A DNA stretch of 23,881 bases from a virus: positions 1 to 23,881 of IMG/VR virus record IMGVR_UViG_3300030419_001947. One strand, 5' to 3'. Positions 1 through 19,543 of this stretch are shown piece by piece (the stretch's first letter is position 1; each line of letters begins with the position of its first letter). A model generated the notes under the pieces. The model was not told where the DNA came from. It searched no databases and worked only from the letters and a program-made list of their open reading frames with translations. Both the position numbers and the translations under genes were made by a program.

Positions 1-2651
1 TTAGCTACTGCTGTCTGGCTGATATCAATGGTGAACTCGTGTTGGTACATAACATTGCCGTTGCCTGGCACAACCATTGCTTCAATCGTCAGGTCTTTAA
101 GCTTGGGGGTGTTGGTTGCTGTACTGCCACGAAGCAGATGAACTCTCATACCTATGTTAATTGCACTGACCCCGGCATTAGACGCAAAAGTATTAGCAGT
201 AGTAGCCGATGTAAAGTTTCCAAGCGCAGTAGTAGTTCTAGCTGCATTATCAGTACCATACTCTATAGCTATATACTCATCTGATGCCGATGAATTAAGG
301 TCATCAGCATTAACGTGTCCTCGTAGCCATGCCTTCGATTCGTGAGGCATTCCAAGGTCTATATATGGTAAGTCCAGATAGCCAACAACATTGTCGGAAT
401 CGTCCTCTCGCTTAATAGATATACCAGACCGAGGATTTACATTAGGCTCACCTAAGAACTTGGCATTGGACACATCAGTCCCTGTTCTAATCGCATAGTG
501 TAATCGTGGCGTACCGTCATCGTCGCCGCTGAAATCAATCCATTCAATAGGCTGATTAGCTGTAGTATTCTGTGTCATATGGTGCCACCCAAAATTATTG
601 TGGGCTAACACCCTGGACTTCGTAGAACCTGAATGACCACCAACTGACATGTACAGGAAGTCACCTGCACTTTTCATCCAGCTGACAGCCCCCATCATGT
701 CTGACGGAACACTGTCTCCTGAGTTTAGACCGAAGCCGTTTTCTATTAATCTTCTGTCTCCCTGTACAGTCAGCTTGTATATGGATGCTGGGGACGAATC
801 ACCGACGCCCTGCGCTATCCAGATAGAGCCGTTATGGATTGTCATCCTCCTACCATTGTCACCATGGCCTGTCATAGGGAATATCAGTTGGTAATCCCAG
901 TCAGTCCCAGATGGATCAACAACATATATTCCTTCATAAGTTGCTACATATATCTTTAGTATCCTATCGATATCAGGATATGCACATATTCCAAGCGGGC
1001 CATCGTTTGAACTAATACGCACGTTCTGATCGACCCATTTCATATTCTCGTCAACATCAGATGTTGAATAGAACCTTATAACTTTACCTACTTCATCCCA
1101 TACCGCAGCTACTAACTCGTCCCCCAGGGTAAGAAGTAATCCTGCATCTATATCTTCATTAGCTGTAACTACGTTTGACAGTAGTGAGTGTTGTATGTCT
1201 TTCATTACCGTTACAACAGAATCGTCAGCATGTGGAGATGCTGCCGTTGCTTTAGTTGTACCGTTATATCCTCGTATTACAGTTAAATTATTTGTTGCTA
1301 TAGCTGTAATATGCATCTGCTCATCATTAACTAATATAGTGTCATGTACGGATAACTCAGCTGCTGAATCTACAGCTACAGTCGTGCTATCTTCAATCGC
1401 TCCGTTTATGAGAGTCATTTTCGTCTGGCTAGTCGGTATTCCTGTCCACGTAGCTCCATCAGTTGACGTGGATATGACATGGCTTTTTCCTTGTATTCCA
1501 AGAGCGATCAGTTTATTTTTGTGAGGAATCATATCCAATCCAACTACCTCAGTAGCCGTCGTTCCAGTAACAGGAACCGCCACCATGACATGATTGCCCC
1601 CACTTACTGTCCAAGACATAGTTGTGCTGACCCCGCTTGCGGTCTCATGGCTAGAACCAAATCGAAAATCTCCACTACCAGACCCTGTATTACCATTTGA
1701 GACCTGTGTCTGCCCTGCTCCCACAGTTAGAGAGTGAGTATCATCAGTGGTTACATAATCAATAACGATATCTCCAGCCACAGTTGTGGCAGTTAAGTCT
1801 GCTGTATGAGAGGCTCCAGAACTACTATCGTATTCTTTTACTATCGTTCTAATGGGACTACCTATATCTGCATTTTTAAAATCAAATACTTGTATAGCCA
1901 TTTTTCTAGAAGTTGCAGCCGTGCCTACAATATTTGCTGTACCTACAGGGGGATTAATTAAGTACCAGACGTTTATACCAGCGTTACCTCCAGACTGCGA
2001 CTCTGCAAGAGTTAAGGGAATTTCATCATAAGTAATACTAGAGGGTTCCTTTCCCGATAGTACTACAAGAAGCCTCAAATTATTGTCAGCTATTGTATGA
2101 CTGAGAGTAATTGTAGTTCCATTAGTTGTTATTACTGCTTCCGCTTCACTCACCATGGTAAGCACAGTGTCCATAATAGTCCCACCGTTTTCCCATGTAA
2201 GGGTATTTCCTGAAACAGGGTCTTCTTCTGCACCTGTGTACTGTCTGTTCAGTAACGTGGTGGAGGTTCCGTCTTCCCACATACCATTCAGTTCGCCTAG
2301 AAAATTAGCTGATGCCCTTATGACTTCAAGCCCGGTATGTGTACTATCCTCAGATTGAATAGGAAGATAGACGGCATCCATCCACCTGGTGTCGCATGTA
2401 CTGTCCCAGAAACGTCGATATTCTTTAGCTTCAAATGCAGCATCTGAGTTAATTCGATAGCGCCCAAACCCATATGTCATGTTGGGATGGATAAATGTTT
2501 CGTATGGACTTACGTCTTGAGGTCGAGTTCTACCTGTCTGCCTGATCGGTTGAACAAATTGACGGACTGGACGAGAAACCATCTTGGTTCCGTCTTCGCT
2601 CGCTTTGAGGGCGTAAGTCTGACTGTTGAGTCTAATGTCGAGTCCAGCCAT
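1..2651 (-). CDS. Large tail (nozzle-like) virion protein, 3' end cut by window
   Basis: An open frame runs from an ATG at 2651 to the left window edge without a stop, giving at least 883 residues; the C-terminus is missing. It begins MAGLDIRLNSQTYALK, 8 nt after the adaptor-like gene ends, with GGTGA upstream as a weak ribosome site. The sequence is rich in Thr, Ser, Gly and Val throughout, as in all-beta virion proteins. Around residues 420-480 is a block with ILVNDEQMHITAI followed by LTVIRGYNGTT, a small beta module I recall from many phage structural proteins. Later segments such as GIYVVDPSGTDWDYQL and FLYMSVGGHSG look like propeller blades. Size and position just after an adaptor-like gene suggest a T7 gp12-like nozzle. 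A fibre or another tail-spike protein is possible. Being a virion protein is firm; the nozzle role is inference. Confidence 0.75.
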   Translation of the reverse strand, partial: MAGLDIRLNSQTYALKASEDGTKMVSRPVRQFVQPIRQTGRTRPQDVSPYETFIHPNMTYGFGRYRINSDAAFEAKEYRRFWDSTCDTRWMDAVYLPIQSEDSTHTGLEVIRASANFLGELNGMWEDGTSTTLLNRQYTGAEEDPVSGNTLTWENGGTIMDTVLTMVSEAEAVITTNGTTITLSHTIADNNLRLLVVLSGKEPSSITYDEIPLTLAESQSGGNAGINVWYLINPPVGTANIVGTAATSRKMAIQVFDFKNADIGSPIRTIVKEYDSSSGASHTADLTATTVAGDIVIDYVTTDDTHSLTVGAGQTQVSNGNTGSGSGDFRFGSSHETASGVSTTMSWTVSGGNHVMVAVPVTGTTATEVVGLDMIPHKNKLIALGIQGKSHVISTSTDGATWTGIPTSQTKMTLINGAIEDSTTVAVDSAAELSVHDTILVNDEQMHITAIATNNLTVIRGYNGTTKATAASPHADDSVVTVMKDIQHSLLSNVVTANEDIDAGLLLTLGDELVAAVWDEVGKVIRFYSTSDVDENMKWVDQNVRISSNDGPLGICAYPDIDRILKIYVATYEGIYVVDPSGTDWDYQLIFPMTGHGDNGRRMTIHNGSIWIAQGVGDSSPASIYKLTVQGDRRLIENGFGLNSGDSVPSDMMGAVSWMKSAGDFLYMSVGGHSGSTKSRVLAHNNFGWHHMTQNTTANQPIEWIDFSGDDDGTPRLHYAIRTGTDVSNAKFLGEPNVNPRSGISIKREDDSDNVVGYLDLPYIDLGMPHESKAWLRGHVNADDLNSSASDEYIAIEYGTDNAARTTTALGNFTSATTANTFASNAGVSAINIGMRVHLLRGSTATNTPKLKDLTIEAMVVPGNGNVMYQHEFTIDISQTAVA

Positions 2652-2659
2652 TTCACCGC

Positions 2660-4009
2660 CTAATAAGCCATGCTAGGGGCTTTAAAACGTGGGCGTGGTA
2701 CTCTGAGTCCTACTGCTCCACTTTCAATAGCCTTGTTGTACTCCGCTTCGTATTGCCGTGCCATCGTAAACCAGTAACTATCTGGTATTCCCATCGACAT
2801 CTCATCCGCAATCATCTGGCGTACCTTATTGTATAGAGGTTCCAGTAGTTCTCCATCTATCTCGACGGTACTGGCATCGCTCGATACTGATGATAGCAAG
2901 TCTGTACCTACAATCCTTAACCTATGGTGTGATGGCAAGTTACCTGTGAATCGTAGTGTTCCCCCGGTGGACGCACCATCTGCGGGTGGAACTATGTCCC
3001 AGTTAGTGATCGGAGTGTATGGTCTATCAAGTGCTTCTGACTGTCCGAGTGTAAGGAATACTTCATCAACATACACTGCTAGAATCGCTCCCGATGTAAC
3101 AGATATACCAACTACAGTTGCAGTATCATCTTGAGTAAGAATCACACTACCTTTCAGCAACTCCCAACCAGTTCCACCGTGAGTCTCTGACTGAACTGTG
3201 CCATCTATAGTTAATGAAACACGACTTGCTACTGTGCAATAGACCCATGCACTCACGTTTGCTTCCATTCCCTGTGTAGCTACCGCTGTGTAAGTCGAGG
3301 ATGTAGAGTCAAAAGTTTGAACAAGCGTAGTCAGAGTATTAAGGGCAACTGCTAACCGTGCTGAATTGTTTCCTGATAGTACGGCATAGTTGGTAGGAGA
3401 ACTTGTCTGTTCCTCCTGGTTTACTGATGAAGTTCCACTACCTGTACTGGTGACACTCCAATTTTCTGGGGTAGTAGCATTAGTCCAGTTCTCAAATGAG
3501 CCGTTGACTAACAGATTCTCTGCATCTGTCTGCGCTTCATATCTTTCACCAAGATATATTCGGTTTACCTTCCTAATGGTTGAAGGTATCTCATATGTGA
3601 ACTGCCTGTTTCCTGTAACTAAGGTTTCAACATCACGGACGATACCTATCTGAGGCCATACTATTTGCCTGGCACGGTTGTATGCTCTCATCACATTGTT
3701 CGGCGGTACTGGCATCAATTCATATGTTGAATCCGCACCATCAGTACCAGCGCCCCAAGCCTTTGAAACTGTAAGAGTTCCACTGGACTGAGCATAGTCT
3801 GTGATACGCCTGTACTGACCGTCTCTGTTGTTACTTGTAACTATGGCAAACCAGTTACCATTGAAGTAATCATCAGCTGAATAGAGATCAGTTAAACCTG
3901 TATCTATAAGAGAAGTGTTGGCTGCGACATTTGTAGTCGTCGTGCCAGTAACCAGACCAAAAGGTCTGACTATCTCTTGTCTCATAGTTTCCCAGGATGT
4001 GGTTCCCAC
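2660..4009 (-). CDS. Collar/head-tail adaptor-like virion protein with inserted carbohydrate-binding-like domain
   Basis: 449 aa. It starts at a GTG that shares one base with the stop of the preceding gene (TAGTG), implying translational coupling. Residues 1-160 hold a beta segment with DDYFNGNWFAIVTS and GQYRRITDY, a pattern I recall from phage collar or adaptor proteins, then the helix MRAYNRARQIVWPQ. Residues about 165-322 look like a separate jelly-roll module: NLLVNGSFENW at its start, then VSAWVYCTVASRVSLTIDG, then AVYVDEVFLTLG at its end, the layout of family 4/9-type carbohydrate-binding domains. The C-terminus returns to helices (PLYNKVRQMIADEMSMG, MARQYEAEYNKAIESG). I infer a connector protein beneath the portal with a sugar-binding domain inserted between connector halves. 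The adaptor role is moderately supported. The CBM-like call rests on motif pattern only. Confidence 0.7.
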   Translation of the reverse strand: MGTTSWETMRQEIVRPFGLVTGTTTTNVAANTSLIDTGLTDLYSADDYFNGNWFAIVTSNNRDGQYRRITDYAQSSGTLTVSKAWGAGTDGADSTYELMPVPPNNVMRAYNRARQIVWPQIGIVRDVETLVTGNRQFTYEIPSTIRKVNRIYLGERYEAQTDAENLLVNGSFENWTNATTPENWSVTSTGSGTSSVNQEEQTSSPTNYAVLSGNNSARLAVALNTLTTLVQTFDSTSSTYTAVATQGMEANVSAWVYCTVASRVSLTIDGTVQSETHGGTGWELLKGSVILTQDDTATVVGISVTSGAILAVYVDEVFLTLGQSEALDRPYTPITNWDIVPPADGASTGGTLRFTGNLPSHHRLRIVGTDLLSSVSSDASTVEIDGELLEPLYNKVRQMIADEMSMGIPDSYWFTMARQYEAEYNKAIESGAVGLRVPRPRFKAPSMAY

Positions 4010-6588: not shown

Positions 6589-6924
6589 CTAGGAAACCTT
6601 CCCAAGTATGACGTCTACCTCGACATTGTAGAAATGTCCTCGTAGTTCAGCATCAGTACTTGTATCTCGTATGAATTCCATGGTCGAAAATTCTGATTCA
6701 CCCAAATATACTACATCACCGCTACCTATTAATTGACCCTCTGATCCTGTTGGACTTGTGCCATCTCCTCTTGCTCGTACAGCAGCTGATTCAATGGTGC
6801 CGACAAAGCTTCTGGCCCCGGTAGGTATTGTTGTAATAAGAGCCGACCCCATACCAAGTATGGTTACAGCTGAGTCACTTATAGTTCCTGATGTGTAATC
6901 GAGTGCCTGTGGTTGCCTTGCCAT
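6589..6924 (-). CDS. Small beta-rich virion protein
   Basis: 111 aa, starting MARQPQALDYTSGTISDS. AAGGAG lies 6 nt before the ATG and overlaps the stop of the preceding gene. The pattern AVTILGMGSALITTIPTGA then SFVGTIESAAVRARGDGTSP, followed by VVYLGESEFSTMEFIRD and YNVEVDVILGKVS, is a compact all-beta protein without signal peptide or membrane segment. Its stop touches the ATG of the fibre gene, so the two are probably made together. A fibre-base, neck or head-decoration role would fit. I do not recognise a named family with confidence. Confidence 0.8.
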   Translation of the reverse strand: MARQPQALDYTSGTISDSAVTILGMGSALITTIPTGARSFVGTIESAAVRARGDGTSPTGSEGQLIGSGDVVYLGESEFSTMEFIRDTSTDAELRGHFYNVEVDVILGKVS

Positions 6925-6927
6925 AAC

Positions 6928-7497
6928 TTACTCCTTCTCTTCAGGCTCTGTCCTGTAATGACCAATTGGTGCCGCAACTGAGTTCTCCTCATTCGGCATC
7001 GGCAAATGATCTAAGGCGCCCTCTCTAACATTGTGTACATGTGCATCACCTTTAAAGTCTGGGATAATCATACGCCATTGGTCTTCAATTGGCATCAAGA
7101 CCGCAGCTGGTATATGACCGCCCCACTTCTTGTACATCTTTTCAAGCCATACCTGGTGTGCGTACTCCGTATCGTAGTCCGTATTAAGAAGCTGAGTTAT
7201 TGCTGAAGCGTAAGCCTTCTTAAACTGTGACGTATCGTGCTTTGTACCATGTCCATTATGCTTGTCTGGGTGACAGGCCGCAATACTATCAACAAGAAAA
7301 CTGGCGACATCCTCAATTGAATCGCCCATGGCTATCAGGTTATCTGTACCGTTGCCTATGGGTACATGATGGACATGCCCTTCCTTGGTCTCAAAAGAAA
7401 CATATGCGTATGGCGACCTATACCCCCGCTCGTTAATCTTTGCAATAAGAGGCACAAACGAGGGATGGTACTTATTATCTTTATTGTCTTCAGACAT
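6928..7497 (-). CDS. Hypothetical virion-module protein, His-rich
   Basis: 189 aa starting MSEDNKDNKYHPSFVPL. Composition is notable for many histidines, with clusters EGHVHHVPIGNG, CHPDKHNGHGTKHDTS and DAHVHNV, and an acidic C-terminus (TEPEEKE). The middle (FKKAYASAITQLL, EYAHQVWLEKMYKKWGGH) is helical. No known catalytic motif is certain; the His clusters could bind metal or be structural. The ATG at 7497 has no clear ribosome site within 15 nt, although two purine-rich blocks (ACGGAGGG, TGGGAGGG) lie further upstream. Its stop overlaps the Shine-Dalgarno of the next gene. It lies among capsid and tail genes, so a minor virion or assembly role is likely. Function unknown. Confidence 0.75.
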   Translation of the reverse strand: MSEDNKDNKYHPSFVPLIAKINERGYRSPYAYVSFETKEGHVHHVPIGNGTDNLIAMGDSIEDVASFLVDSIAACHPDKHNGHGTKHDTSQFKKAYASAITQLLNTDYDTEYAHQVWLEKMYKKWGGHIPAAVLMPIEDQWRMIIPDFKGDAHVHNVREGALDHLPMPNEENSVAAPIGHYRTEPEEKE

Positions 7498-7571
7498 CGC
7501 TATATGTGACCGAGAGAGCCTATCTGACCCTCCCAGTCACCCTCCGTTGACCTTTCCCATAGGGAACCCCC
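7498..7571 (-). promoter_or_regulatory. 74-nt intergenic leader with stop-codon-overlapping inverted repeat
   Basis: One of only two internal gaps of more than 70 nt in the minus-strand operon. A 6-bp inverted repeat (CCCATA...TATGGG, plus-strand 7556-7561 and 7573-7578, 11-nt loop) covers the stop codon of the upstream 247-aa gene; a smaller alternative hairpin TTCCC-TAT-GGGAA lies inside it. No T-run follows, so it is not a standard terminator. The leader is purine-rich on the transcript and holds ACGGAGGG and TGGGAGGG with no good ATG nearby. An in-frame ATG 63 nt upstream of the next gene meets a TGA after seven codons. Possible mRNA processing, pausing or translational control; weak evidence. 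Confidence 0.35.
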
Positions 7572-8315
7572 TTATGGGTTAATGGTTAGATTAACGTATC
7601 CATAGTCCGTTGTGACTGGAGCAATGAGTGAAGCTACACCAATAGTCTCCTCATTTTCATTACTACCGTCTCGGTCTAGAGGCTCACCTGATCCTGCGGT
7701 GTTGTCAGAAACCCTGACATGATTGCCTATAACAAAAGCTACGTCACAGAGTACTGCTGCTGGCCCCCATGTTTGAAGCCAACCGTAGTCATCGTCGTCG
7801 AAGTCTGTTGGGGCTACACCTACGGCATGGCCTGTAGCAGTAGTTGGATACACAATGAAGTCCTTATAAGGATTCTTTGCAAGACCCGCTATTGTCGCAG
7901 CCTCAAAAGCAACAGCAATTGCATCACCGTCGTACAGATTTATGGCTCCACTACCGCTACTGTCAATAGCGTCATGTTGCCTAATCTTGTAGTTATGGCC
8001 TTGTCCTGTACCATCGTTTATATATAAATACCCATCAGCATACTGGTCTTCAGTTACCGCGGTACCACCTACTGTTACGGTTACACTTTTATCTCCGACT
8101 GAAGCAGTGTTAGTTGCTAAGTCCATGTCGTGATTTGCTACCCCGACAGCACTTTGGCAGATTGCTCCAGCAGTTTGCGCTCCGTCGGTTTGTCCATAGT
8201 AGAAAACTCTACTGTCAGGCAAAACCATTCTTGTTCCGAAAGGGTGAAGCTTTGTTGTGCCAGTGACTTTCTCATCACCATAATCACCCCATATTGTTCC
8301 ATACGTGAGTGCCAT
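7572..8315 (-). CDS. Beta-rich virion structural protein
   Basis: 247 aa starting MALTYGTIWGDYGDEKV. GAGGT before the ATG serves as ribosome site. The middle reads SVTVTVGGTAVTEDQYADG then YLYINDGTGQGHNYKIRQH, then KNPYKDFIVYPTTATGHAVG and DYGWLQTWGPAAVLCDV. I recall this combination (a NPY..vvhPTTAT segment followed by a WLQTwG..avL segment) from conserved structural proteins of marine phages, usually lacking a precise assignment. Hydrophobic strands alternate throughout with no membrane segment. It lies a few genes after the major capsid protein, so a head decoration, head-tail joining or tail role is possible. Virion identity is moderately sure; the exact role is unknown. Confidence 0.85.
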   Translation of the reverse strand: MALTYGTIWGDYGDEKVTGTTKLHPFGTRMVLPDSRVFYYGQTDGAQTAGAICQSAVGVANHDMDLATNTASVGDKSVTVTVGGTAVTEDQYADGYLYINDGTGQGHNYKIRQHDAIDSSGSGAINLYDGDAIAVAFEAATIAGLAKNPYKDFIVYPTTATGHAVGVAPTDFDDDDYGWLQTWGPAAVLCDVAFVIGNHVRVSDNTAGSGEPLDRDGSNENEETIGVASLIAPVTTDYGYVNLTINP

Positions 8316-8338
8316 TTTAATACCTCAATGTCACTAAA

Positions 8339-9133
8339 TTATTTCTTCTTTCTTCCACGAGCCACTCGTTTGATTGCACCTGTCAATCCATCATCTTTCT
8401 TAGCGGTCTCAGCTTCCTCTACAGGAACTTCTTCCTCCACTACTTTAGGTTCTGGAATAACAACCTTCATCTGTTCGACTGTTGCGTGGTTTTGACCTCG
8501 TCCTCTTGGAGGAGGTGCTACATAGTAAGCCCTATGATTCTGTGTTGCTCTTAAACTTTTAAAGCCATGATCATGAACTAAGCAGTAATACTCGTAGTCC
8601 TTCATTCTCTCCGTTACTTCACTTGGTGGGTCATACCTTAATTGTACTCCTCTATTCTGGCAGTACATTCTGTATGCATCCCACGTAATAAACTTTCTGT
8701 CTGCCTTTCTTCCAGGCACAACATACGGAGCATCCGCATATAAATCACCCTCAGTGAATTCGGCGGTCTCAGACGTCTCAACGTCAACAAGTGGATCAAC
8801 ACTTGAGCGGAGACGGAAACCCTTTTGGAGATAATTACGTAACTGCACAGCATTAGCACAGGGTAACGGATTGGTGGCTTGCCAACCGTAGTCGTCTTCA
8901 CGACCATAGTTAGTTACTGTTACACGATGGTACAGAATTGCCCTTCCACGTTCTACCCAATGAGGCTCCTGTCCTACACCTAGCTTATAGCCAAGTTCGT
9001 TCCTGAGTTCTCTCTGTATAAACGTCCATTCCATCTCTCTGAACATCTCGACGTGTTCTCGTGCTGGGCTATCATCATCAAGGAAGTAGTCCCACGAGTC
9101 TACAACGATTTGCTCCTCTGTGGCTGTGGTCAT
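8339..9133 (-). CDS. Hypothetical capsid-module protein with one finger-like motif and basic tail
   Basis: 264 aa. Its ATG overlaps the TGA of the preceding gene by 4 nt (ATGA), so the two are translationally coupled. The N-terminal 60 residues are acidic and helical (EHVEMFREMEWTFIQREL). A motif near residues 190-215, YCLVHDHGFKSLRATQNH, has Cys-x2-His-x12-His spacing, close to the Cys-x2-Cys-x12-His of the neighbouring upstream protein, and could be a degenerate zinc finger. A Gly/Pro/Arg stretch (PPPRGRGQNH) follows, then a Glu/Val-rich linker (EEEVPVEEAE) and a basic end (AIKRVARGRKKK). The family is not recognised. Context suggests a minor virion protein that contacts nucleic acid; this is inference. 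Confidence 0.75.
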   Translation of the reverse strand: MTTATEEQIVVDSWDYFLDDDSPAREHVEMFREMEWTFIQRELRNELGYKLGVGQEPHWVERGRAILYHRVTVTNYGREDDYGWQATNPLPCANAVQLRNYLQKGFRLRSSVDPLVDVETSETAEFTEGDLYADAPYVVPGRKADRKFITWDAYRMYCQNRGVQLRYDPPSEVTERMKDYEYYCLVHDHGFKSLRATQNHRAYYVAPPPRGRGQNHATVEQMKVVIPEPKVVEEEVPVEEAETAKKDDGLTGAIKRVARGRKKK

Positions 9134-10677: not shown

Positions 10678-11415
10678 TTATTGTCCTGCTTCGGACAACC
10701 TTTTCTTGTAGTCTTCAAAAGAAAGCTTATCTTCTATGTAAGCCCTCTCTATCTGTTCGACTGTCCTCATGTTATTAGAAACACCATTAGCTGGAGTCCC
10801 TGCCTGTGGCGGACTCTGTACTTGTGGTTGTTCTGTTTGAGTTGGTTCTGGTGTAGTTGCTTGCGGTGTTGGACTTGCCATTACCGTTCTTAAACTACTA
10901 AAGAACCTATCTCTCCTTTGACCTTCAGACAATCCGGGATCAGTAAATGCTTGATAATCAATACCTGGGGTTTGAGGATCAACTCCCATGCTTCTCGCGA
11001 TAGCATAAATTTGTTCCCATTCCGATGACGCGTCTTGCGTTTCGGCTTGGGGTTCTGCTGTCTGTGATTGCACCTGTTGCTGTTGAAGCTGTGCATTTTC
11101 ATTCATCAAGTACTCGAATCCTGCTCGGTATTCTTCTGGTACCTGTTGAGCATACTGTTGCATAGCTTGGTAACGCTGTTGCATCGCTCCCTGTTGGTAT
11201 TGTTCTCGCATTCCATTCAAGCCCCTGTCCACCTTTGACTGCAACCCGGCTACTTGTCTTTCGGTGCTGGTTCTTAAATCCTGAACCAATCCTTTTAAAG
11301 CCCGGAGTTCTTCAGTCACTGGGTCAGCTGCTTGAGGTGTACCCTCCTGAACAGCGTCCAGTTGTGCCTGATCCTGATCCAATCCAGATGTAAAATCTGT
11401 GTTTTCTGTAGTCAC
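10678..11415 (-). CDS. Head scaffolding protein
   Basis: 245 aa. The start is GTG at 11415, chosen because a perfect AGGAGG (11422-11427) lies 6 nt upstream. The sequence is Gln/Glu-rich, with a coiled-coil stretch near residues 35-75 (EELRALKGLVQDL, ERQVAGLQSKVDRGLNGMRE), a Gln-rich helix (QQRYQAMQQYAQQVPEEYRA), a disordered Pro/Gln/Thr middle, and a C-terminal helix IERAYIEDKLSFEDYKKRL. This is the usual make-up of a scaffold: flexible coiled coil with a short terminal helix that binds coat protein. It is immediately upstream of the major capsid gene. No protease motif is visible, so scaffold removal may be by exit or a host protease. It is the first gene after the internal promoter. Confidence 0.87.
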   Translation of the reverse strand: MTTENTDFTSGLDQDQAQLDAVQEGTPQAADPVTEELRALKGLVQDLRTSTERQVAGLQSKVDRGLNGMREQYQQGAMQQRYQAMQQYAQQVPEEYRAGFEYLMNENAQLQQQQVQSQTAEPQAETQDASSEWEQIYAIARSMGVDPQTPGIDYQAFTDPGLSEGQRRDRFFSSLRTVMASPTPQATTPEPTQTEQPQVQSPPQAGTPANGVSNNMRTVEQIERAYIEDKLSFEDYKKRLSEAGQ

Positions 11416-11444: not shown

Positions 11445-11460
11445 TGTGACGTCTTTCACA
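11445..11460. promoter_or_regulatory. Perfect palindrome TGTGA-N6-TCACA, CRP-like operator candidate
   Basis: Plus strand reads TGTGACGTCTTTCACA, with AAA before and GTT after. The two 5-bp arms are perfect inverted repeats at the spacing of the Escherichia coli CRP consensus TGTGA-N6-TCACA, and the flanks agree closely as well. It starts at the last base of the predicted -10 box and would cover the transcription start, so a bound protein should repress the capsid genes. It could also be a site for another CRP/FNR-family or phage regulator, or chance. Confidence 0.5.
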
Positions 11461-11489
11461 GTTTAGTTTTTGTTCCTAGTTAATGTCAA
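11460..11489 (-). promoter_or_regulatory. Sigma70-type promoter for scaffold-capsid operon
   Basis: In the 77-nt gap between the 1215-aa gene and the scaffold gene, the minus strand carries a perfect -35 TTGACA (11489-11484), an 18-nt spacer, and TAAACT (11465-11460) as -10, matching the consensus at four of six bases. The predicted start near 11453 leaves a leader of about 35-40 nt with a strong ribosome site. This would give the abundant capsid and scaffold proteins their own transcript, separate from the packaging genes. Confidence 0.6.
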
Positions 11490-11492
11490 TTA

Positions 11493-14400
11493 TTATCGTG
11501 CTGGAACTGTTCCCAGTTCTTCCTCTCTTTGCATTTGTTCTAAATATAAAATGTTTTTCATTTCTTCAGGTAATCTGTCAAATTGAATAAACCCCCACTT
11601 AAGCAATATACGAGATATAGCCAACGCACGTTCTTTCTGTTCAGGGGGAACTACAGATTGTCCTGTTCTAAAGTTTTTAGGATTAGTATCAAAGTTAGGG
11701 TCATCATCATCCCAACCAGCACTTCTTGCCATTTTCTTCTGGAAACTAGCATCTTCTAATGCTGCATGTAATTTGGGGTCATGCATCATATTTACAAAAA
11801 CCCCACTTCCCTCCTCAGTTTCTGTGTCATCTCTAATGTCACGTTGCATTGCAGAGTACTTATACCTTAGATAAGACTCGTAAACCCCTGCCTTCTTTAC
11901 AACATCACTAGTGATATAAAAGAAATTATCTGCAAGGAAAGCCATATTATCCTGATATTCTCTAACGGCTTCAAAGAAATATCGACGATCACTGTCTGTG
12001 TCAGCCCGGCTAACAGGAATTGCTGTACTTACAATCCTCTTATAACCAGGATCATCCAAGTTAATCGTGCCATCCTCATTTAATAATGTAATAACCCCCA
12101 TAGCGATAGCTTGATTAATGACTTCTTTTTGTTGCTTCTCTTTTAAATCAAAATCAAAATCAGGAGTAACCATCCCCTGTATCACAACCCGAGGAGCTTG
12201 GATACTATGATACTTATCACGGAGTAAATCAACTAAATAATTAGGGTTTTCCCATCTGTTTAACTGAGCTGCTTTCCATATTGCCGCCTCTTCAGTAATA
12301 TGCTCACTCCATGCGATATTTTTTCTTGATAAATATGTACGTATATGATCTCTTCTAATTGGCCCGACAGGAACAGACAAAACACTTTGCATTGCCCCTA
12401 TGATAGGTTCTCCAGTCTTTGGATTAGTTCCCCCCTGCTCAATTGACTCAACTGAATTAGCGTAATCTCTAATACCAGTAAACCACTGTTCCTGGGGACT
12501 GTCCTTCGGGGTTTTTGCCTTACGATCAGCCCAGTAGGCTAACATAGTAGGATGGGCATCTACGTCTATTTGTTCCTGTGAGCCATCTTCTAGGTCTTCA
12601 TACATCTTTCCCGGATACATCTGTTCAGTTAATTCGTTCTGTAAATCTCGTGAAGTAGAGAACGTCTGAAACCCACCACCGTACAAGGAAAATGCCGTTC
12701 CCGCATATGCAATAGGATTACTAAGAAACTGATTTATGTCATGTCCCTCTCCCGACGTCTTTTCAACAACATCCATGATGTCCCCTATCAACATGGGAAC
12801 TGCTCTATCAATTAAAAAATCTGTTGTCAATATATCTCGCGGTTCCATTGCCTCTCCAAGAAAGTCTTCGCCTGTAACCAGGTCTGAACCAAGAGCATAA
12901 GCAGGGTTTTCCTTAGATCGCATGAATCGCCCAAATACCTCTGCTCTACTTTCAAGAAATCCACCCGGAACATCATAGATATATCCTGTGGTCAAGCTCT
13001 TTCTCTCTGCGGATTTTACATCTCCAATCATCTGTGCCGTGTATCGCATTAACGGTTGCCACCCACCAAAGAAATCAAATCTATGTGTACCTACTTTCCC
13101 TTTACCGAAATCCGATGAACGAGGGTCTAATTCTACTTCCGCTCCTGCCAGATGCAATTTTCTCAACCACATCATGCTAGTTTCAGCAAACCCTACCATG
13201 CTTCTGGCCCACATCTTGGAAGCAAGAGCGTTTCTATCCATACCAGCCTTAATAGCACCGCCAACAATAAAAGAAGGCCCGGATGTTGCAAACCTTGGAG
13301 CAAAAAAGAGCGCACTTAAAATATCTGTGGCTCGGCCTTTATTAGCCCAGCTAGGTAATGGGCCTCGACCTGTTCCCCAGTTAATCATTTCGGCAAGGTC
13401 TTTATAATCCTGATATGATCTTTTAACTCCAGAAACTTCCCATTCAGAAATTGTGCGATAAAAAATATCATGTCGATATTTATTTAAAAATGACGCATAT
13501 GCTCTTTCCGATGCCTTAACACCAGGTATCCACGAAGCAAACTTACTAACAAACTTTTCTTCTCTGTAGGTTGTTCCAGTACCAGCTTTAGTTCCTCGTT
13601 CCGCATAAAAAAGTCCTGAGTCACTGGCAATTTTGTACATTGGGTGATTCTTAATACTTGCCTCAAGGGCTAAAGCATTCTTTTCACTGAAAGCAACCTT
13701 ATGCATAGCAATTGCAGCATCCTTAAACTCCTCAGGATAGGCTCCCATAAGCGGGCGCCCCTGTCTTAATGGGGCAGACAAGTCCATGCTTGCAATCATT
13801 GTTCTAGGCAATGCAATGACATCAAAAATCCCATCTGCAATTACAGTCTTCCATCCTACCTCTTCCACCATATCAATAATGTCACTTCCGAATAACTGTC
13901 TGAGTTCCTGTATCTGGGCAGGTTGGGGTACCTGATCCCCTTCTGTAAGAGCAATAAAGGCTTTCCATTTATTAACAAAATCAAAAGGCTTATCTGGATC
14001 ACTTTGCCCGCGAATATAGCGAACGAGTTCATCGTACTGATCAGACGTTAAAGGATTAGTATCTGAAAGAGACTGCCAATTTGCTTTTTCGTACTCCCCT
14101 CCAAGCGCACGTAAAGCGTCATTAAAAACATCCCGATCTATAAGCCCATTGTTTGCTGGATCATTAAACTCTTTTGTTAGCTTATCTGTTAGTTCAGCTA
14201 TACGTTTTCTTTTCTCATGCTTTACGAGTTCAGTCTGTTTTTTTCTTACCGAAGCTGACTCTTTAATTTTTTCTACTATTGTTTTTACAATAGGATCATC
14301 AGGCATAGGAATTCTTTCAGCAGTAAAAGATGCTACCTTTGAAGCCTTCTTCATCGCATCCTCATCCCATTTATTTCGTAAAGCTTTTGCTGCTTCCTCT

Positions 14401-15140
14401 ATCATCTGGTCAGTTGCGGTTAACGGAAAACCAGAATGTGTCCCAAACCAGTTCATCCCACCAATAAAGGTAGGAAACGTAGGAGGATCAAACACTTTTT
14501 TTTCTACCATTTCGGCAGCGTCTTTAGCCGCCAATTGAGCCGATTGATCTATTACTGGTTTCCCTGTAATGGGATTCCTACGTTTTACAACTGGCTTTGC
14601 TTTTTTTACCTCTTTAATAGTCTTAAATGCATTTTTACCAATCTTATAAGGCAATCGCCCCGGAAAAAAAACATACGGATCACCAAAAGTCATGTCCCAC
14701 AAACCCTCGACTCCCCATGGGGCAGGATTTACCTCATCAGAAAGCTTCATAAGTTCTCGTAAAGAAAGCTTCCGCCCAAGTTCTTCTTCTTTTCTTAATC
14801 TGTGCTGTGCTAAATTGTAATGATATACATCCAGATTAGTGCCAGGAACAGGGTTAAGACTACCAGGGTCCCATAATGCTCTGCCTCCTAAGCCCTGAAA
14901 CGTCTCAAAACTCCAGTCTGCCCACTCTTGTGCGGGCCACATAGCCTTATCCCATAGCCAGCTAAGACCCTTGCTTACTGGTTCCATAGTCCTGCGTTGC
15001 CCTGACAAAGTAAGCGACGGCATGGTCGAGGTAGTTTCCGTTGGTGGAAGCGATGGGCCTAATTGTGGCTGTCTAGTAGGAACAGGTGTCGGGGTTCCCT
15101 GTTTTCTAGGGTCGTTCGTTCCTTCTATTGGTGGTGGCAT
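11493..15140 (-). CDS. Giant (1215 aa) polyvalent-type phage protein of unknown role
   Basis: 1215 aa; its ATG shares one base with the stop of the 789-aa gene (TAATG). The first 50 residues are Pro/Thr-rich and disordered (MPPPIEGTNDPRKQGTPTP), then Trp-rich helices (GLSWLWDKAMWPAQEWADW). The middle is largely helical with Lys/Glu-rich segments (residues about 160-330). Residues about 610-700 hold FFAPRFATSGPSFIVGG and, from Asp672, LDPRSSDFGKGKVG followed by HRFDFFGGWQPLMRYTAQMI and KSLTTG. I recall a close pattern (DPRSSDFGKI..GNTR.D..GGFQ..) in very large phage and plasmid proteins of the polyvalent group, where it is a large polyvalent-associated domain. Such proteins are thought to travel with the DNA into the host. 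Position between portal and scaffold, very large size and AT-rich codons set it apart from its neighbours. Function is unknown; no catalytic motif was identified. Confidence 0.8.
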   Translation of the reverse strand: MPPPIEGTNDPRKQGTPTPVPTRQPQLGPSLPPTETTSTMPSLTLSGQRRTMEPVSKGLSWLWDKAMWPAQEWADWSFETFQGLGGRALWDPGSLNPVPGTNLDVYHYNLAQHRLRKEEELGRKLSLRELMKLSDEVNPAPWGVEGLWDMTFGDPYVFFPGRLPYKIGKNAFKTIKEVKKAKPVVKRRNPITGKPVIDQSAQLAAKDAAEMVEKKVFDPPTFPTFIGGMNWFGTHSGFPLTATDQMIEEAAKALRNKWDEDAMKKASKVASFTAERIPMPDDPIVKTIVEKIKESASVRKKQTELVKHEKRKRIAELTDKLTKEFNDPANNGLIDRDVFNDALRALGGEYEKANWQSLSDTNPLTSDQYDELVRYIRGQSDPDKPFDFVNKWKAFIALTEGDQVPQPAQIQELRQLFGSDIIDMVEEVGWKTVIADGIFDVIALPRTMIASMDLSAPLRQGRPLMGAYPEEFKDAAIAMHKVAFSEKNALALEASIKNHPMYKIASDSGLFYAERGTKAGTGTTYREEKFVSKFASWIPGVKASERAYASFLNKYRHDIFYRTISEWEVSGVKRSYQDYKDLAEMINWGTGRGPLPSWANKGRATDILSALFFAPRFATSGPSFIVGGAIKAGMDRNALASKMWARSMVGFAETSMMWLRKLHLAGAEVELDPRSSDFGKGKVGTHRFDFFGGWQPLMRYTAQMIGDVKSAERKSLTTGYIYDVPGGFLESRAEVFGRFMRSKENPAYALGSDLVTGEDFLGEAMEPRDILTTDFLIDRAVPMLIGDIMDVVEKTSGEGHDINQFLSNPIAYAGTAFSLYGGGFQTFSTSRDLQNELTEQMYPGKMYEDLEDGSQEQIDVDAHPTMLAYWADRKAKTPKDSPQEQWFTGIRDYANSVESIEQGGTNPKTGEPIIGAMQSVLSVPVGPIRRDHIRTYLSRKNIAWSEHITEEAAIWKAAQLNRWENPNYLVDLLRDKYHSIQAPRVVIQGMVTPDFDFDLKEKQQKEVINQAIAMGVITLLNEDGTINLDDPGYKRIVSTAIPVSRADTDSDRRYFFEAVREYQDNMAFLADNFFYITSDVVKKAGVYESYLRYKYSAMQRDIRDDTETEEGSGVFVNMMHDPKLHAALEDASFQKKMARSAGWDDDDPNFDTNPKNFRTGQSVVPPEQKERALAISRILLKWGFIQFDRLPEEMKNILYLEQMQREEELGTVPAR

Positions 15141-17509
15141 TATTGACCTCTATAACCAAATATTGATTGATCTTCTGCTTGTAATATTGGATCATAAGGA
15201 ATTGGTGCGTCTTGATATGTAACATCTCCACCAAGCCCAATATTAACTGTACCTCCTGCACTAATTGGAGCTAAAGTGGTACCTTCTGTTAATTGTGGTA
15301 TTGTCCCAGTGATCTGCGGAGTAGGGAAAAGCCGTTCATAATCAGCATCTCCGGGTCTAATAGTTCTTTCTGGAGATGCATAACCATATGATCCTGTTTG
15401 TGGATCGTAACCTGTTATCGGCAAAGGGGTCACAGATGATCCCGGCATAAAGTTACTTGGTACTTCATATCCTCTCATCTTGCTATAATCTATTTCCTGA
15501 ACCCACTGTCCATCCCTAAACACCTCTTTCATAGGGGTACCTTCACCACTTGTATACCATTGCAGTTGGGTTCCGTCAGCAGTCAGTTCAGCTGGTATTG
15601 AAAATGGACTAGCGAATGGATTGTGTAATCCCCACATGGTTATATTCTGCGCCCTCTGTGGCAGTCTTGGAAAGATATCCTCCATAAACCGAGAACCAGA
15701 GGCCTCTGCTCTCATCATGTCCATTTGGCCTGTTTCAGGGTCAGCTGTCCAAGGCGCAGGAACATACGTAAAGCCTGATAACGGTTGAAGGTCACCCTCT
15801 GGAGTTATTCCACTACTACGGCTTACCTGATCCATTACCATGTCCATCGCCAGCGCTCGACCCTGTGCGTTAGACACCAAGCCGGGGTAATTTCTAAACA
15901 CTTCTTGTAATAAAGAATCAATTTTAATGGTTGCGGGATATTCACCGCTTTCGTAATCAAATCCACGTTGTGACGGATCACCCGGTATGCCAAGTCTTTC
16001 ACGTAGTGAATACCCATCACCGAATAAAGTTGTGTCCTTAAACCTGTCTGGCTTAGTCCGATATTCGGTAATAGCCTGTTCATTTATTGCGTAAGGAAGT
16101 ACGTCTCCATAAAAATCTTGCACCCATGCCTTTGCTTCAGGGACAGGTTCACCTATTTGTTCACTCTGCTGTGCCTGACTCCAGTAATTGTATGTAATAT
16201 TGTCAATCACATCATCAGAAGGAACTTTTCCTTTATAGATCGTTTTTAATGCACTGGTAACCACTGTGCGTGTTTTATCCCAGTCTGCTAAGTTAGCGTA
16301 CCCAGCTATGCGATCTTCTTCAGCTTTTTTCGATGCTTCTCTTGAAGCCTTATCACGAGCTGCTTCCCTGTCCAAGGCCGTAACATCGGGTCTCTGGTTC
16401 CATGCAGTATTAAAGGAAGCACCAGACATCTTAATAATGTCTTCTGGAGTCCATTTAATTGTTCCAAGATCAGTTCTTGCTTCACGCCACCCTTTAACCT
16501 TGTCCCCAAAAAGCTGCGCCTGCTGATTAACATATGCATCACGTTGTGCTACAGCAGCAGCTTCTGTTGGTTTAAGAATTGAATTTCTTTGTCTTTCACT
16601 CTCAAATCTCTTTTTGAACCACGCTACAGGATCACTTGTAATCGCCTGGTAATCTTCCTCTGTCAGCTGAACATCAGCCTGACGTGCTTCAAGAATTTCT
16701 CTCTGTTCTGCTTGAGTTTTTGGGTTATCAGTAAAATGCGTAAGAAGAAAACCTAAATCTAACTGCTGTTCGTTTGTTCCTTCTGGCCCCGCATTTAACA
16801 TGGCCCGCTTAGACAATGTTTTTATAGCAGGGTTATATGCTGTTCCCTGTCTTTCTAAAGCAGCTTCAATCTCAGGCCAGAACTTAACAACCTGTTTAGC
16901 CGCTTCTGGTCGAGTCATTGCATCAATGAGACCAAGGTCTTCAGCTGCATCAAGATATGCTGCCTGTTTTAAATCTGTCGTAAAATGTAATGGTTGGTTT
17001 TCTACTCTTGTTTCCTGTATAGCCTTAACATCCCTTAAAGCCATTAGAATTGGAACCCATGAAGAAGGAACATCTCCTTCAAAAGTAGTTAACCCGCCCC
17101 ACGTAAGAGGTTGTCCTTCTACCTGTACTGTTGTGCTTGCGTGTGGATTTAAAACAAATGTTTGAATTAAATTAGCAGCTATAGTCCTTTCTTCTTCTGT
17201 TGGAACCCTTCCTGTCTGTGCTTCAAAAAGCTCATTCCAAGCTACATACGATTCATCAAAAAATAAGACTACATCCTCAATATTAATATGATCCCGCGCA
17301 CCTTTAAATTCATTTCTTGCTTCCTGCACGTCACCTGCAACATCATCTAACTCTTGATCAAAGTAAGCTGCCTGTCGTGCCATCCAGTCAATGCTTAACT
17401 TAGAGTCTGGCAGCCTCACTATCATGTCACGAATTTCTTTCAGCACCTCTCTAAGGATAGTCTTATCCCAGTTATAATATGGACTCTCATAAGGTTTAGG
17501 CCCGGCCAT
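15140..17509 (-). CDS. Large (789 aa) hypothetical protein between portal and scaffold
   Basis: 789 aa starting MAGPKPYESPYYNWDKTI. The ATG lies 14 nt inside the preceding 62-aa gene, with AGAAG upstream. The first two thirds are mostly helical with charged segments (REVLKEIRDMIVRL, EAARDKASREASKKAEEDRI, DPVAWFKKRFESERQRN); the last 150 residues are Pro/Gly/Thr-rich and beta or disordered (PITGYDPQTGSYGYASPE, TLAPISAGGTVNIGLGG). No signal peptide, membrane helix or known catalytic motif is evident. It is coupled at both ends to neighbours (a 1-nt TAATG overlap with the 1215-aa gene). Its place directly after portal and its size suggest an internal core, ejection or portal-associated protein. 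I do not recognise a family. Confidence 0.75.
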   Translation of the reverse strand: MAGPKPYESPYYNWDKTILREVLKEIRDMIVRLPDSKLSIDWMARQAAYFDQELDDVAGDVQEARNEFKGARDHINIEDVVLFFDESYVAWNELFEAQTGRVPTEEERTIAANLIQTFVLNPHASTTVQVEGQPLTWGGLTTFEGDVPSSWVPILMALRDVKAIQETRVENQPLHFTTDLKQAAYLDAAEDLGLIDAMTRPEAAKQVVKFWPEIEAALERQGTAYNPAIKTLSKRAMLNAGPEGTNEQQLDLGFLLTHFTDNPKTQAEQREILEARQADVQLTEEDYQAITSDPVAWFKKRFESERQRNSILKPTEAAAVAQRDAYVNQQAQLFGDKVKGWREARTDLGTIKWTPEDIIKMSGASFNTAWNQRPDVTALDREAARDKASREASKKAEEDRIAGYANLADWDKTRTVVTSALKTIYKGKVPSDDVIDNITYNYWSQAQQSEQIGEPVPEAKAWVQDFYGDVLPYAINEQAITEYRTKPDRFKDTTLFGDGYSLRERLGIPGDPSQRGFDYESGEYPATIKIDSLLQEVFRNYPGLVSNAQGRALAMDMVMDQVSRSSGITPEGDLQPLSGFTYVPAPWTADPETGQMDMMRAEASGSRFMEDIFPRLPQRAQNITMWGLHNPFASPFSIPAELTADGTQLQWYTSGEGTPMKEVFRDGQWVQEIDYSKMRGYEVPSNFMPGSSVTPLPITGYDPQTGSYGYASPERTIRPGDADYERLFPTPQITGTIPQLTEGTTLAPISAGGTVNIGLGGDVTYQDAPIPYDPILQAEDQSIFGYRGQ

Positions 17510-17684
17510 TTCTTCTCCCTAACAAAACATCAGGTCTTAAATTATTTGCTCTAGCCCATGCATTGAAATCCTTACGTTTAGGCTTTGGAACATACTGATC
17601 TTTAAATGCTTCAACCTGTTCCCTAAATCTTAACTGTGCAGTCAATACAGGGTCTCTTAATAAATCCGTTTCTTTTCCTGCCAT
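17496..17684 (-). CDS. Small basic hypothetical protein
   Basis: 62 aa starting MAGKETDLLRDPVLTAQ. The ATG shares one base with the portal stop (TAATG), with AGGG/AGGA upstream; the 3' end overlaps the 789-aa gene by 14 nt. It is a helical, basic protein (LRFREQVEAFKDQYVPKPKR, FNAWARANN, LLGRRNGRA) with no recognised domain. Both overlaps and the intact frame support it as a real gene. A portal-linked assembly factor is possible but unproven. Confidence 0.75.
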   Translation of the reverse strand: MAGKETDLLRDPVLTAQLRFREQVEAFKDQYVPKPKRKDFNAWARANNLRPDVLLGRRNGRA

Positions 17685-19543
17685 TATCCTACCCTTTGCC
17701 CTGACGGCATATCTCTACCGAGGCCAGTTGCCGTCCCTAGTTGTGAACCTAGAATATCAAGTCCGCCAAGCCCCTGTGGGTATACAGACTCACGTCCTGC
17801 CCCTGTAGCCATCCTCTGCCCCTGTATATTTTGCTCTCCCGGCCTTTGAAGTTGCGCCTGGTTTGGAAGATACTGCGTTCCAAGCTGGTTCCCTGTTGGT
17901 GGTGCAATATCCGCAGCCTGCGCCCTCTGCTGTTCCAGTTGAACAGCCTGTGCAACTTCTGCCGCCTGTTCCGCTCTTGTCATTTCAAGAAGTTTTTCAG
18001 CAGCCATCTGGTTCTGTTCCTCAAGCGGATTTGTAATACCAACTCTTCGCTGCGCTTCATATAGACTGATAAGTCCTGACCCACCATTCCATAGCCTAAG
18101 TGCAAGTAAAGCTTCACGCTCTCTCTCTTCTGGAGCCTCTGCTTTAAGGCTTACATTATTCTCATAGAATGCCTTAATATCATTTGGCTCAATCGATTGA
18201 TCAAACTCATGTACTGTACTTCTTCCATGAACAGTAACCCTACCCATAGCCTTATTATTCACAAGTTTAAGGAACTTCTGGTTTGCTTCTTCCATTCCTC
18301 TTGCCATAGCGTCTGCAAACTTACCAAATACAAGTCTGCCTGTACCCGCAAGTACCGATAATGCAAATCCTGTAGATACCCCTGAAGGTCGCATACCACG
18401 CACTACGTTAGGAAAAGTTGCTTCCTCAATCATGGTTTGTACCATGCCAAGCTGTTGCAGTATTTCCTGTGGAGGCATTGCTAATGGTGACGGCTCTATC
18501 TGGACATTTGGACGTACCCAGTTCTTAGAAGCAAACAGTTCGTACTCATCCATAGTTGATTCAGCTGATGAAGCTGGCCCATAGAAGTCTATGGTTCTCC
18601 ATGCATACTGCCTCAATATAGCTTCATACTGTGTAATCAATCTCGCTTCTGAGTCAAGAAGACTATGTACAGGTTTTAGTATCCCCTGATATCTATGTTC
18701 AGGAGACCCAACATCATAATCTATTGATGATGCTGGCTGTATCTTTATATACGGATTAAATCCATAGCCGTGTTTGTACGGCCCCCATACCCATTCACCG
18801 TCTGCCATTCTTCCACACCAGGTGTCGTCCCAGTACTCGAGGAAAGTAACAGTTTCCGATGTGGGCATAACTGGCGCCCACTCTGGATAAAGTGCGCGGA
18901 TATCATTGCAATGAGCCTCATAGAACTCAATTGCCCACTTCATCCCTGCTCTTGAATCATCCCAAATTAAGTTCTTTGGATTTACTGCATCCAGTATAAA
19001 AGGAAAAGATATATCTCTTTCATCTAAATGATCTTTTAATGCATCTTTATACTCTTCTTCCGAATCATAATCATCCAATTTTGGGCTATCAGGCCATTTG
19101 TCTCCATCCCACCATGCTTTCATGAAGGACACGCCGTATTGAATAGAATGTTTTACAACAGTTCTTTTCTTGTGTTCGGGTATATGCATCCATACGCCCT
19201 GTAAGAATTTCTGTATTCTCTCTGACCTATTCTTCGCACGAGGCGATGGGGCAGGAACAAATATAGATGGATTATTTACATCCACATGGTCTGTTGCGAC
19301 ATTAACAATAGCGTGAGGAGTTGCAGGACGAACTGGATCAATCGGCATATCATCTGGAATCGGAACAGTTCTTGTTCCAAAATAGAATTCATCTTCTTCA
19401 TCACACTGAGCATGGAACTGCTCAAAGTGCGTTCGATATGTTTCAAATATCTGTAAAACTTCTTCATCCGTTGGCTTGGAATCATCATAGACCTGATCAC
19501 CGGGAACCAGCGGATTACCTGTATCAAAATTTATCAATACCAT
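17684..19543 (-). CDS. Portal protein
   Basis: 619 aa starting MVLINFDTGNPLVPGDQ, with a 1-nt overlap with TerL (TAATG) and AGGAG upstream. Features of podovirus-type portals are visible: an N-terminal helix with acidic aromatic content (EQFHAQCDEEDEFYFG), the wing segment PHAIVNVATDHVDVNNPSIF, HSIQYGVSFMKAWWDGDKWP, an Asp/Trp-rich region DAVNPKNLIWDDSRAG, then SLLDSEARLITQYEAILRQY and the stem helices with EEATFPNVVRGMRPSGVSTG. The last 100 residues are Gln/Ala-rich and disordered (EVAQAVQLEQQRAQAADI), likely inside the head or contacting terminase. The length is within the usual 500-700. Its place directly after TerL is canonical. It forms the dodecameric DNA entry vertex. Confidence 0.9.
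   Translation of the reverse strand: MVLINFDTGNPLVPGDQVYDDSKPTDEEVLQIFETYRTHFEQFHAQCDEEDEFYFGTRTVPIPDDMPIDPVRPATPHAIVNVATDHVDVNNPSIFVPAPSPRAKNRSERIQKFLQGVWMHIPEHKKRTVVKHSIQYGVSFMKAWWDGDKWPDSPKLDDYDSEEEYKDALKDHLDERDISFPFILDAVNPKNLIWDDSRAGMKWAIEFYEAHCNDIRALYPEWAPVMPTSETVTFLEYWDDTWCGRMADGEWVWGPYKHGYGFNPYIKIQPASSIDYDVGSPEHRYQGILKPVHSLLDSEARLITQYEAILRQYAWRTIDFYGPASSAESTMDEYELFASKNWVRPNVQIEPSPLAMPPQEILQQLGMVQTMIEEATFPNVVRGMRPSGVSTGFALSVLAGTGRLVFGKFADAMARGMEEANQKFLKLVNNKAMGRVTVHGRSTVHEFDQSIEPNDIKAFYENNVSLKAEAPEEREREALLALRLWNGGSGLISLYEAQRRVGITNPLEEQNQMAAEKLLEMTRAEQAAEVAQAVQLEQQRAQAADIAPPTGNQLGTQYLPNQAQLQRPGEQNIQGQRMATGAGRESVYPQGLGGLDILGSQLGTATGLGRDMPSGQRVG

Follow-up and report, generated by a model that had tools for sequence, protein, structure and literature searches.

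Probable ejection proteins encoded beside the portal in an exchangeable gene block

IMG/VR virus record IMGVR_UViG_3300030419_001947 (the window; the whole record, 23,881 bases) encodes two very large proteins, A and B, of 789 and 1215 amino acids (aa) between its portal and scaffold genes. What do proteins of this size do in this place? The late region of the window is one long minus-strand block with the gene order two unassigned genes, TerS, TerL, portal, a 62-aa protein (p62), A, B, scaffold and major capsid protein (MCP). The comparisons described here make it probable that A and B are internal-virion (ejection) proteins of a short-tailed phage that work like gp15 and gp16 of T7, their genes having been relocated beside the portal in an exchangeable block.

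A and B are both encoded by complete open reading frames (ORFs), in agreement with a preliminary description of the sequence that had reported intact proteins of these lengths between portal and scaffold. The same description had the two genes coupled to the portal by TAATG overlaps. The A/B junction is CAATAATGCC, a TAATG overlap, and the portal/p62 junction is also TAATG; the portal reaches A by way of p62, a gene that the description had not listed and that shares a 14-base overlap with the start of the A gene. The A and B ORFs are not chance occurrences because homologues occupy the same slot in many independent contigs and because the genes are under purifying selection. The ratio of nonsynonymous to synonymous substitution rates (dN/dS) within alleles is 0.34-0.47 for A and 0.21-0.31 for B compared to 0.02-0.10 for the portal, and selection is thus weaker on A and B than on the portal.

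The slot between portal and scaffold in related viruses

A group of relatives was gathered by scanning viral contigs with the portal and with the MCP as queries. Across all of the roughly 18 records in which the slot is covered, two long ORFs separate portal and scaffold, first A with 424-1121 aa and then B, the larger, with 999-1791 aa. In most cases A comes after a small gene whose product is 56-66 aa long, and L019 has additional genes ahead of A. The survey of related phages that the preliminary description proposed therefore finds the same pair, medium then large, in every relative. Its wording that the block was inserted is misleading, as all members of the group are organised in this way. 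In G017 and G018 slot A corresponds to a plus-strand frame no longer than 460 codons, masked by a 479-aa ORF on the minus strand that was rejected as an artefact antisense to this frame. The B of G005 (L066 4983-8974) lies in two ORFs, 4983-6092 and 6101-8974, whereas L002 has an uninterrupted counterpart of 91% identity. The split is a frameshift or an assembly error.

One homology component (E below 1e-4) holds all complete B proteins except that of L003, and except the partial B of L006; these two form a separate B family. Profile comparison chains the other B families with probabilities of 96% (I-II), 97% (I-IV), 99% (II-V) and 99% (IV-VI), mainly through the second half of the protein.

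MuF-like minor head proteins normally lie between portal and scaffold, and A and B could represent one or more such proteins, enlarged and split. Phages with related MCPs have a 330-608-aa gene between portal and scaffold, one of which is labelled 'head morphogenesis domain'. However, Pfam searches extended to E 1 for A and B and to E 0.1 for the slot relatives detect no MuF domain, the slot holds two genes and not one, and homologues of B lie behind the nozzle gene in other phages (below). A MuF origin is the least likely of the explanations considered.

Homologues of B in the ejection position

Synteny in relatives decides where searches with the window proteins alone fail. The core of B matches a 1582-aa protein of MW202497 (Manatee Spring phage), which sits shortly after a stabilization protein that matches the PHROGs 'internal virion protein' and 'head closure'. 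The B of L019 as query retrieved three further contigs, G021, G022 and G023. The gene order in G022 is TerL-portal-..-MCP-..-nozzle-like 647 aa-405 aa-B 1081 aa, and the nozzle-like protein is 30% identical to the MW202497 stabilization protein. G023 has the same nozzle-405-B segment. In G021 the order is TerL-portal-447 aa-B, and at the opposite end of the contig an 822-aa 5'-open ORF is followed by a 291-aa gene and the MCP. No end repeat was found in G021, and its ends are as expected if a circle had been cut inside B. The portals of G021 and G022 are 38% identical and their A partners 29% identical (E 7e-14). Comparison of the window-type B profile with the G021/G022-type B by hhalign gave a probability of 100 and E 3e-48 over 500 columns. 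The G021 and G022 pairs are homologous, and the same A-B pair therefore occurs on the portal side and on the nozzle side. The MW202497 protein as query gave no matches in viral contigs, and no B was found in bacterial genomes.

These results place B in synteny with ejection proteins and link it to them by transitive homology, not by a direct match. The suggestion in the preliminary description that ejection proteins are encoded inside the packaging operon is thus well supported by homology and synteny. In the whole group the A and B genes stand between portal and scaffold and not behind the tail-nozzle genes. A nozzle-side location is usual for ejection genes but does not define them (PMC10386132), and both locations are represented among the homologous pairs.

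A second line of evidence comes from L003, whose portal is 85% identical to that of the window and whose slot B carries the domain LPD38 (E 1e-11). The L003 protein matches the 1254-aa LPD38 protein of Pelagibacter podophage Lederberg EXVC029P (24% identity, E 6e-6), which is a podovirus (PMC7892664). The Lederberg order is tail tubular A, tail tubular B, a PHROG internal virion protein, 589 aa, the LPD38 protein and a fibre, which is the T7 gp14-gp15-gp16-gp17 order. The L003 slot B and its Lederberg homologue thus have the same second-and-larger position, the latter after the 589-aa gene. Lederberg differs from the window in its T7-like location of the genes and in that its LPD38 protein has no detectable homology to the window B. 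The L003 slot protein has giant unannotated relatives in Bacillus phage Page (gp20, L068 17001-22040) and Vibrio phage 1.205.O (L070 4342-13734). LPD38 is present in Page gp20 (E 3e-27), so a podovirus whose host has a single membrane also has this domain.

LPD38 was named from polyvalent proteins, and its presence in a slot-mate of B raises the alternative that A and B are polyvalent host-takeover or anti-defence effectors that are packaged in the head and injected, outside the DNA conduit. The preliminary description had proposed virion-loaded effectors on the basis of a polyvalent-type block, DPRSSDFGK at residue 672 of B followed by a GGW segment. The motif is at that position, and DPRSSDFGK..GGW is conserved within the B core. 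The Pfam LPD38 model does not detect it, however, and finds nothing in the window with E values allowed up to 1. Foldseek with the B model lists unnamed phage proteins and some annotated as 'large polyvalent protein associated domain', the latter all with E above 0.05. The variability of A and B would fit an arms race, and polyvalent proteins are often encoded near packaging genes (PMC5512222). On the other hand, PHROGs and Pfam find no fused enzymatic or effector domain in A, B or their slot relatives, and neither A nor B has an LPD domain. Exactly two large genes are present in every relative and none lacks them, which fits an essential structural role, and homologues of B occupy the ejection position elsewhere. 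The effector proposal is not borne out and is considered improbable.

Still less likely is the idea that A or B is a tail protein, such as a tape measure, that a long-tailed phage has moved into its head module. A and B are long and mostly helical in their poor models, a few tape-measure proteins appear at noise level among the Foldseek matches, and relatives of the MCP include long-tailed phages with tape measures. Homology to tape-measure proteins, a result that the preliminary description had named as overturning its reading, was looked for in PHROGs and Pfam with A, B and the slot relatives and was not found. The relative G018 is closed by a 127-bp terminal repeat, and its only ORFs above 500 aa are the portal, B and a 791-aa nozzle-position protein. 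No tape measure was recognised in it, nor tail-tube or tape-measure neighbours. B relatives also adjoin nozzle or stabilization proteins, and a tail origin is accordingly very unlikely.

Several observations weigh against an ejection function. A and B gave nothing usable against PHROGs, Pfam and PDB sequences, and no named ejection protein or solved structure was matched; an apolipoprotein A-I match (E 0.01) was set aside as amphipathic-helix composition. The AlphaFold models have a mean predicted local distance difference test score (pLDDT) of 47 for A and for B, which is too poor for a fold test. Both models look largely helical, and Foldseek with the A model returned noise and no PDB fold match. 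No direct homologue of A was found in an ejection position, and its assignment rests on constant pairing with B. No link between the window B family and that of L003 and Lederberg emerged when their profiles were compared, leaving the shared slot as their connection. No lysozyme or peptidoglycan hydrolase domain and no gp14-like membrane protein was found; p62 has no obvious membrane segment on reading the sequence and is far smaller than T7 gp14 (62 versus about 200 aa). The short tail is itself suggested by missing tail genes. Finally, the hosts may be Chloroflexota, in which case a periplasm-crossing tunnel may be unneeded. This weak hint comes from the TatC gene of G018 (L048 16375-17073, in the closed 45-kb genome; Pfam E 3e-38), whose only cellular relatives detected are two Chloroflexota genomes (34-35% identity, in a search needing exact 8-residue words). 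The T7 tunnel model would need changing if the hosts have a single membrane.

With A and B read as ejection proteins, both would be incorporated into the procapsid at the portal, be driven out through the portal and nozzle in advance of the genome and assemble into a conduit across the host envelope, B being the putative gp16 counterpart. Published ejection proteins are encoded by adjacent genes, with gp15 of 431-982 aa and gp16 of 609-1337 aa and very low identity compared to the conserved portal (PMC8954989). A and B resemble T7 gp15 and gp16 in being adjacent with the second larger, in having sizes within or near these ranges and in low identity beside a conserved portal, and the L003-type B matches the gp16-position protein of Lederberg. 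They differ in lying beside the portal and not behind the nozzle, and no direct sequence link connects A or B to the T7 proteins. The pairs of MW202497, G021, G022 and G023 have a homologous B core with a smaller A-like gene ahead; G021 is portal-side like the window, whereas the other three are nozzle-side. The N4-like phage DEV also has an ejection-protein operon (gp72, gp73 and gp71), one member of which rings the portal in the virion (PMC10925440). No sequence relation to the DEV proteins was detected, and DEV gp71 is an RNA polymerase.

Ejection genes generally lie right of the tail-tube genes and are hard to place owing to divergence and mosaicism (PMC10386132). Fast divergence makes ejection proteins difficult to identify, and giant phage proteins labelled 'hypothetical' often remain unnamed. 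One family found in both the standard and the portal-side position makes such proteins nameable in uncultured phages. Proteins of this kind are already known; what is unusual is that their genes lie on the portal side and are exchanged as a block (below), and no description of the portal-side arrangement was found in the open-access literature searched.

Exchange of the block and the motif at its right edge

The window and its close relatives are 80-87% identical in TerL, 82-87% in the portal and 84-89% in the MCP. Global alignment of the same pairs gives 18-25% for A and 21-37% for B, the lower values being about the level of unrelated proteins. G003 and G005 are 93% identical in the portal, 89% in the MCP and 77% in the scaffold, and 23% in each of A and B. 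The breakpoints are sharp. DNA similarity ends at codon 34 (G003/G005), 39 (window/L013) or 36 (L033/L013) of the small gene and returns 0-4 bases before the end of B in the same three pairs. The exchanged unit is therefore the second half of the small gene plus A and B. The C-terminal part of A is common to phages with differing B families (L010/L013, E 9e-23; G003/L002, E 2e-17), and the cassette itself is thus mosaic. Close relatives presumably exchange this unit by recombination in the conserved flanks. The joint exchange of the p62 tail, A and B suggests that these three must match one another, the initial half of p62 remaining linked to the portal; speculatively, p62 could be an adaptor. 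The scaffold was considered as a recruiter that diversifies together with A and B. This idea is unsupported by G003/G005, with 77% scaffold identity and 23% in A and B, and by the window and L013, which share a B family and have scaffolds of 53% identity.

The B stop codon is followed directly by TTGACA-18 nt-TAAACT; GATAGGAG(G) comes next, ahead of the scaffold gene, which starts with GTG. Seven close relatives whose B genes differ retain both hexamers (one CTGACA, one TAGACT) at a distance of 18 nt, and the spacer sequence varies. A consensus promoter scan gave fewer sites than shuffled sequences and as such is no evidence. The motif carries weight because it is conserved beside B sequences whose similarity is at the level of unrelated proteins. 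It suggests a low-copy TerL-portal-p62-A-B unit that would end just before a separate promoter for the high-copy scaffold and capsid genes, which would be transcribed separately and more strongly.

Whole ejection sets (gp7, gp20 and gp16) also differ among related P22-like phages. P22 escapes SieA through changes in the ejection proteins gp16 and gp20, and P22 hybrids carrying the HK620 ejection genes are partly resistant to SieA (PMC10883804). Changes in these sets alter sensitivity to an entry block. SieA-type superinfection exclusion is one known pressure on ejection proteins. Unlike the P22-like sets, the window cassette lies beside the portal with its breakpoints in a 62-aa gene and at the B stop codon, next to a promoter. 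Selection for the swaps could come from envelope differences or exclusion systems. It is quite possible, though short of probable, that the p62 tail, A and B form a portable entry cassette in which the whole envelope-crossing machinery is exchanged in one step between the portal side and the scaffold promoter. Near-identical capsids would thereby evade exclusion or fit different envelopes, and the core proteins, possibly in Chloroflexota hosts, would face a barrier unlike the periplasm met by T7. Particles that are about 90% identical with very different ejection pairs are natural swaps and offer a ready-made experiment on selection for ejection-protein diversity.

Features of the window and neighbouring genes

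Table 1. Coordinates of the block, its flanks and other late features in the window
Feature	Position	Strand	Remarks
Portal, 619 aa, left conserved flank	17684..19543	-	name based on its place after TerL and before the A/B slot; 82-87% identity in close relatives
p62, 62 aa	17496..17684	-	conservation with the portal side over the first ~35 codons, cassette-dependent variation in the last ~20 residues; left breakpoint near 17568
A, 789 aa, probable gp15-like ejection protein	15140..17509	-	constant partner of B in relatives
B, 1215 aa, probable gp16-like ejection protein	11493..15140	-	core homologous to nozzle-side proteins (MW202497, G022) and a portal-side protein (G021)
B conserved core, residues 386-746	12903..13985	-	common to B and the MW202497 protein
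DPRSSDFGK block, B residues 672-680	13101..13127	-	B relatives keep DP.S/D..FGK or DPTSGKF
Promoter-like TTGACA-18 nt-TAAACT, right cassette edge	11460..11489	-	directly after the B stop codon, ahead of scaffold
Scaffold, 245 aa, right conserved flank	10678..11415	-	named by position before MCP
MCP, 295 aa	9773..10660	-	weak Pfam match and tblastn to annotated capsid proteins
p449, tail/adaptor-position protein	2660..4009	-	conserved in the group; only a weak tail-fibre match in databases
p883, nozzle-position protein, open at window end	3..2651	-	repeat-rich; apparently beta-rich by eye; without database match

The TerS-position gene encodes 188 aa, and TerL was matched in PHROGs (E 9e-31). 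The portal and scaffold have no useful PHROGs or Pfam match, and both labels come from position and conservation. The Pfam match of the MCP (E 9e-4) is below the Pfam cut-off; tblastn links it to proteins annotated as capsid, from pelagiphages among others, at 25-30% identity (best E 1e-17). Smaller genes, an S74-type fibre gene and the 883-codon ORF that is open at the window end lie 3' of the MCP gene. Base composition is even over the late region and therefore gives no sign of a recent foreign island.

Two other observations concern genes outside the block. G018 carries methyltransferase-like and nucleotide-sugar epimerase genes amid its head and tail genes (L048 3269-6879). The protein p247 of the window (7572-8315; L060 18317-19060), in a decoration-like position, is 89% identical to its G016 counterpart and 38-81% identical to those of closer relatives. 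The neighbouring genes of the G016 pair are only 28-33% identical, indicating that p247 moved recently as a single gene.

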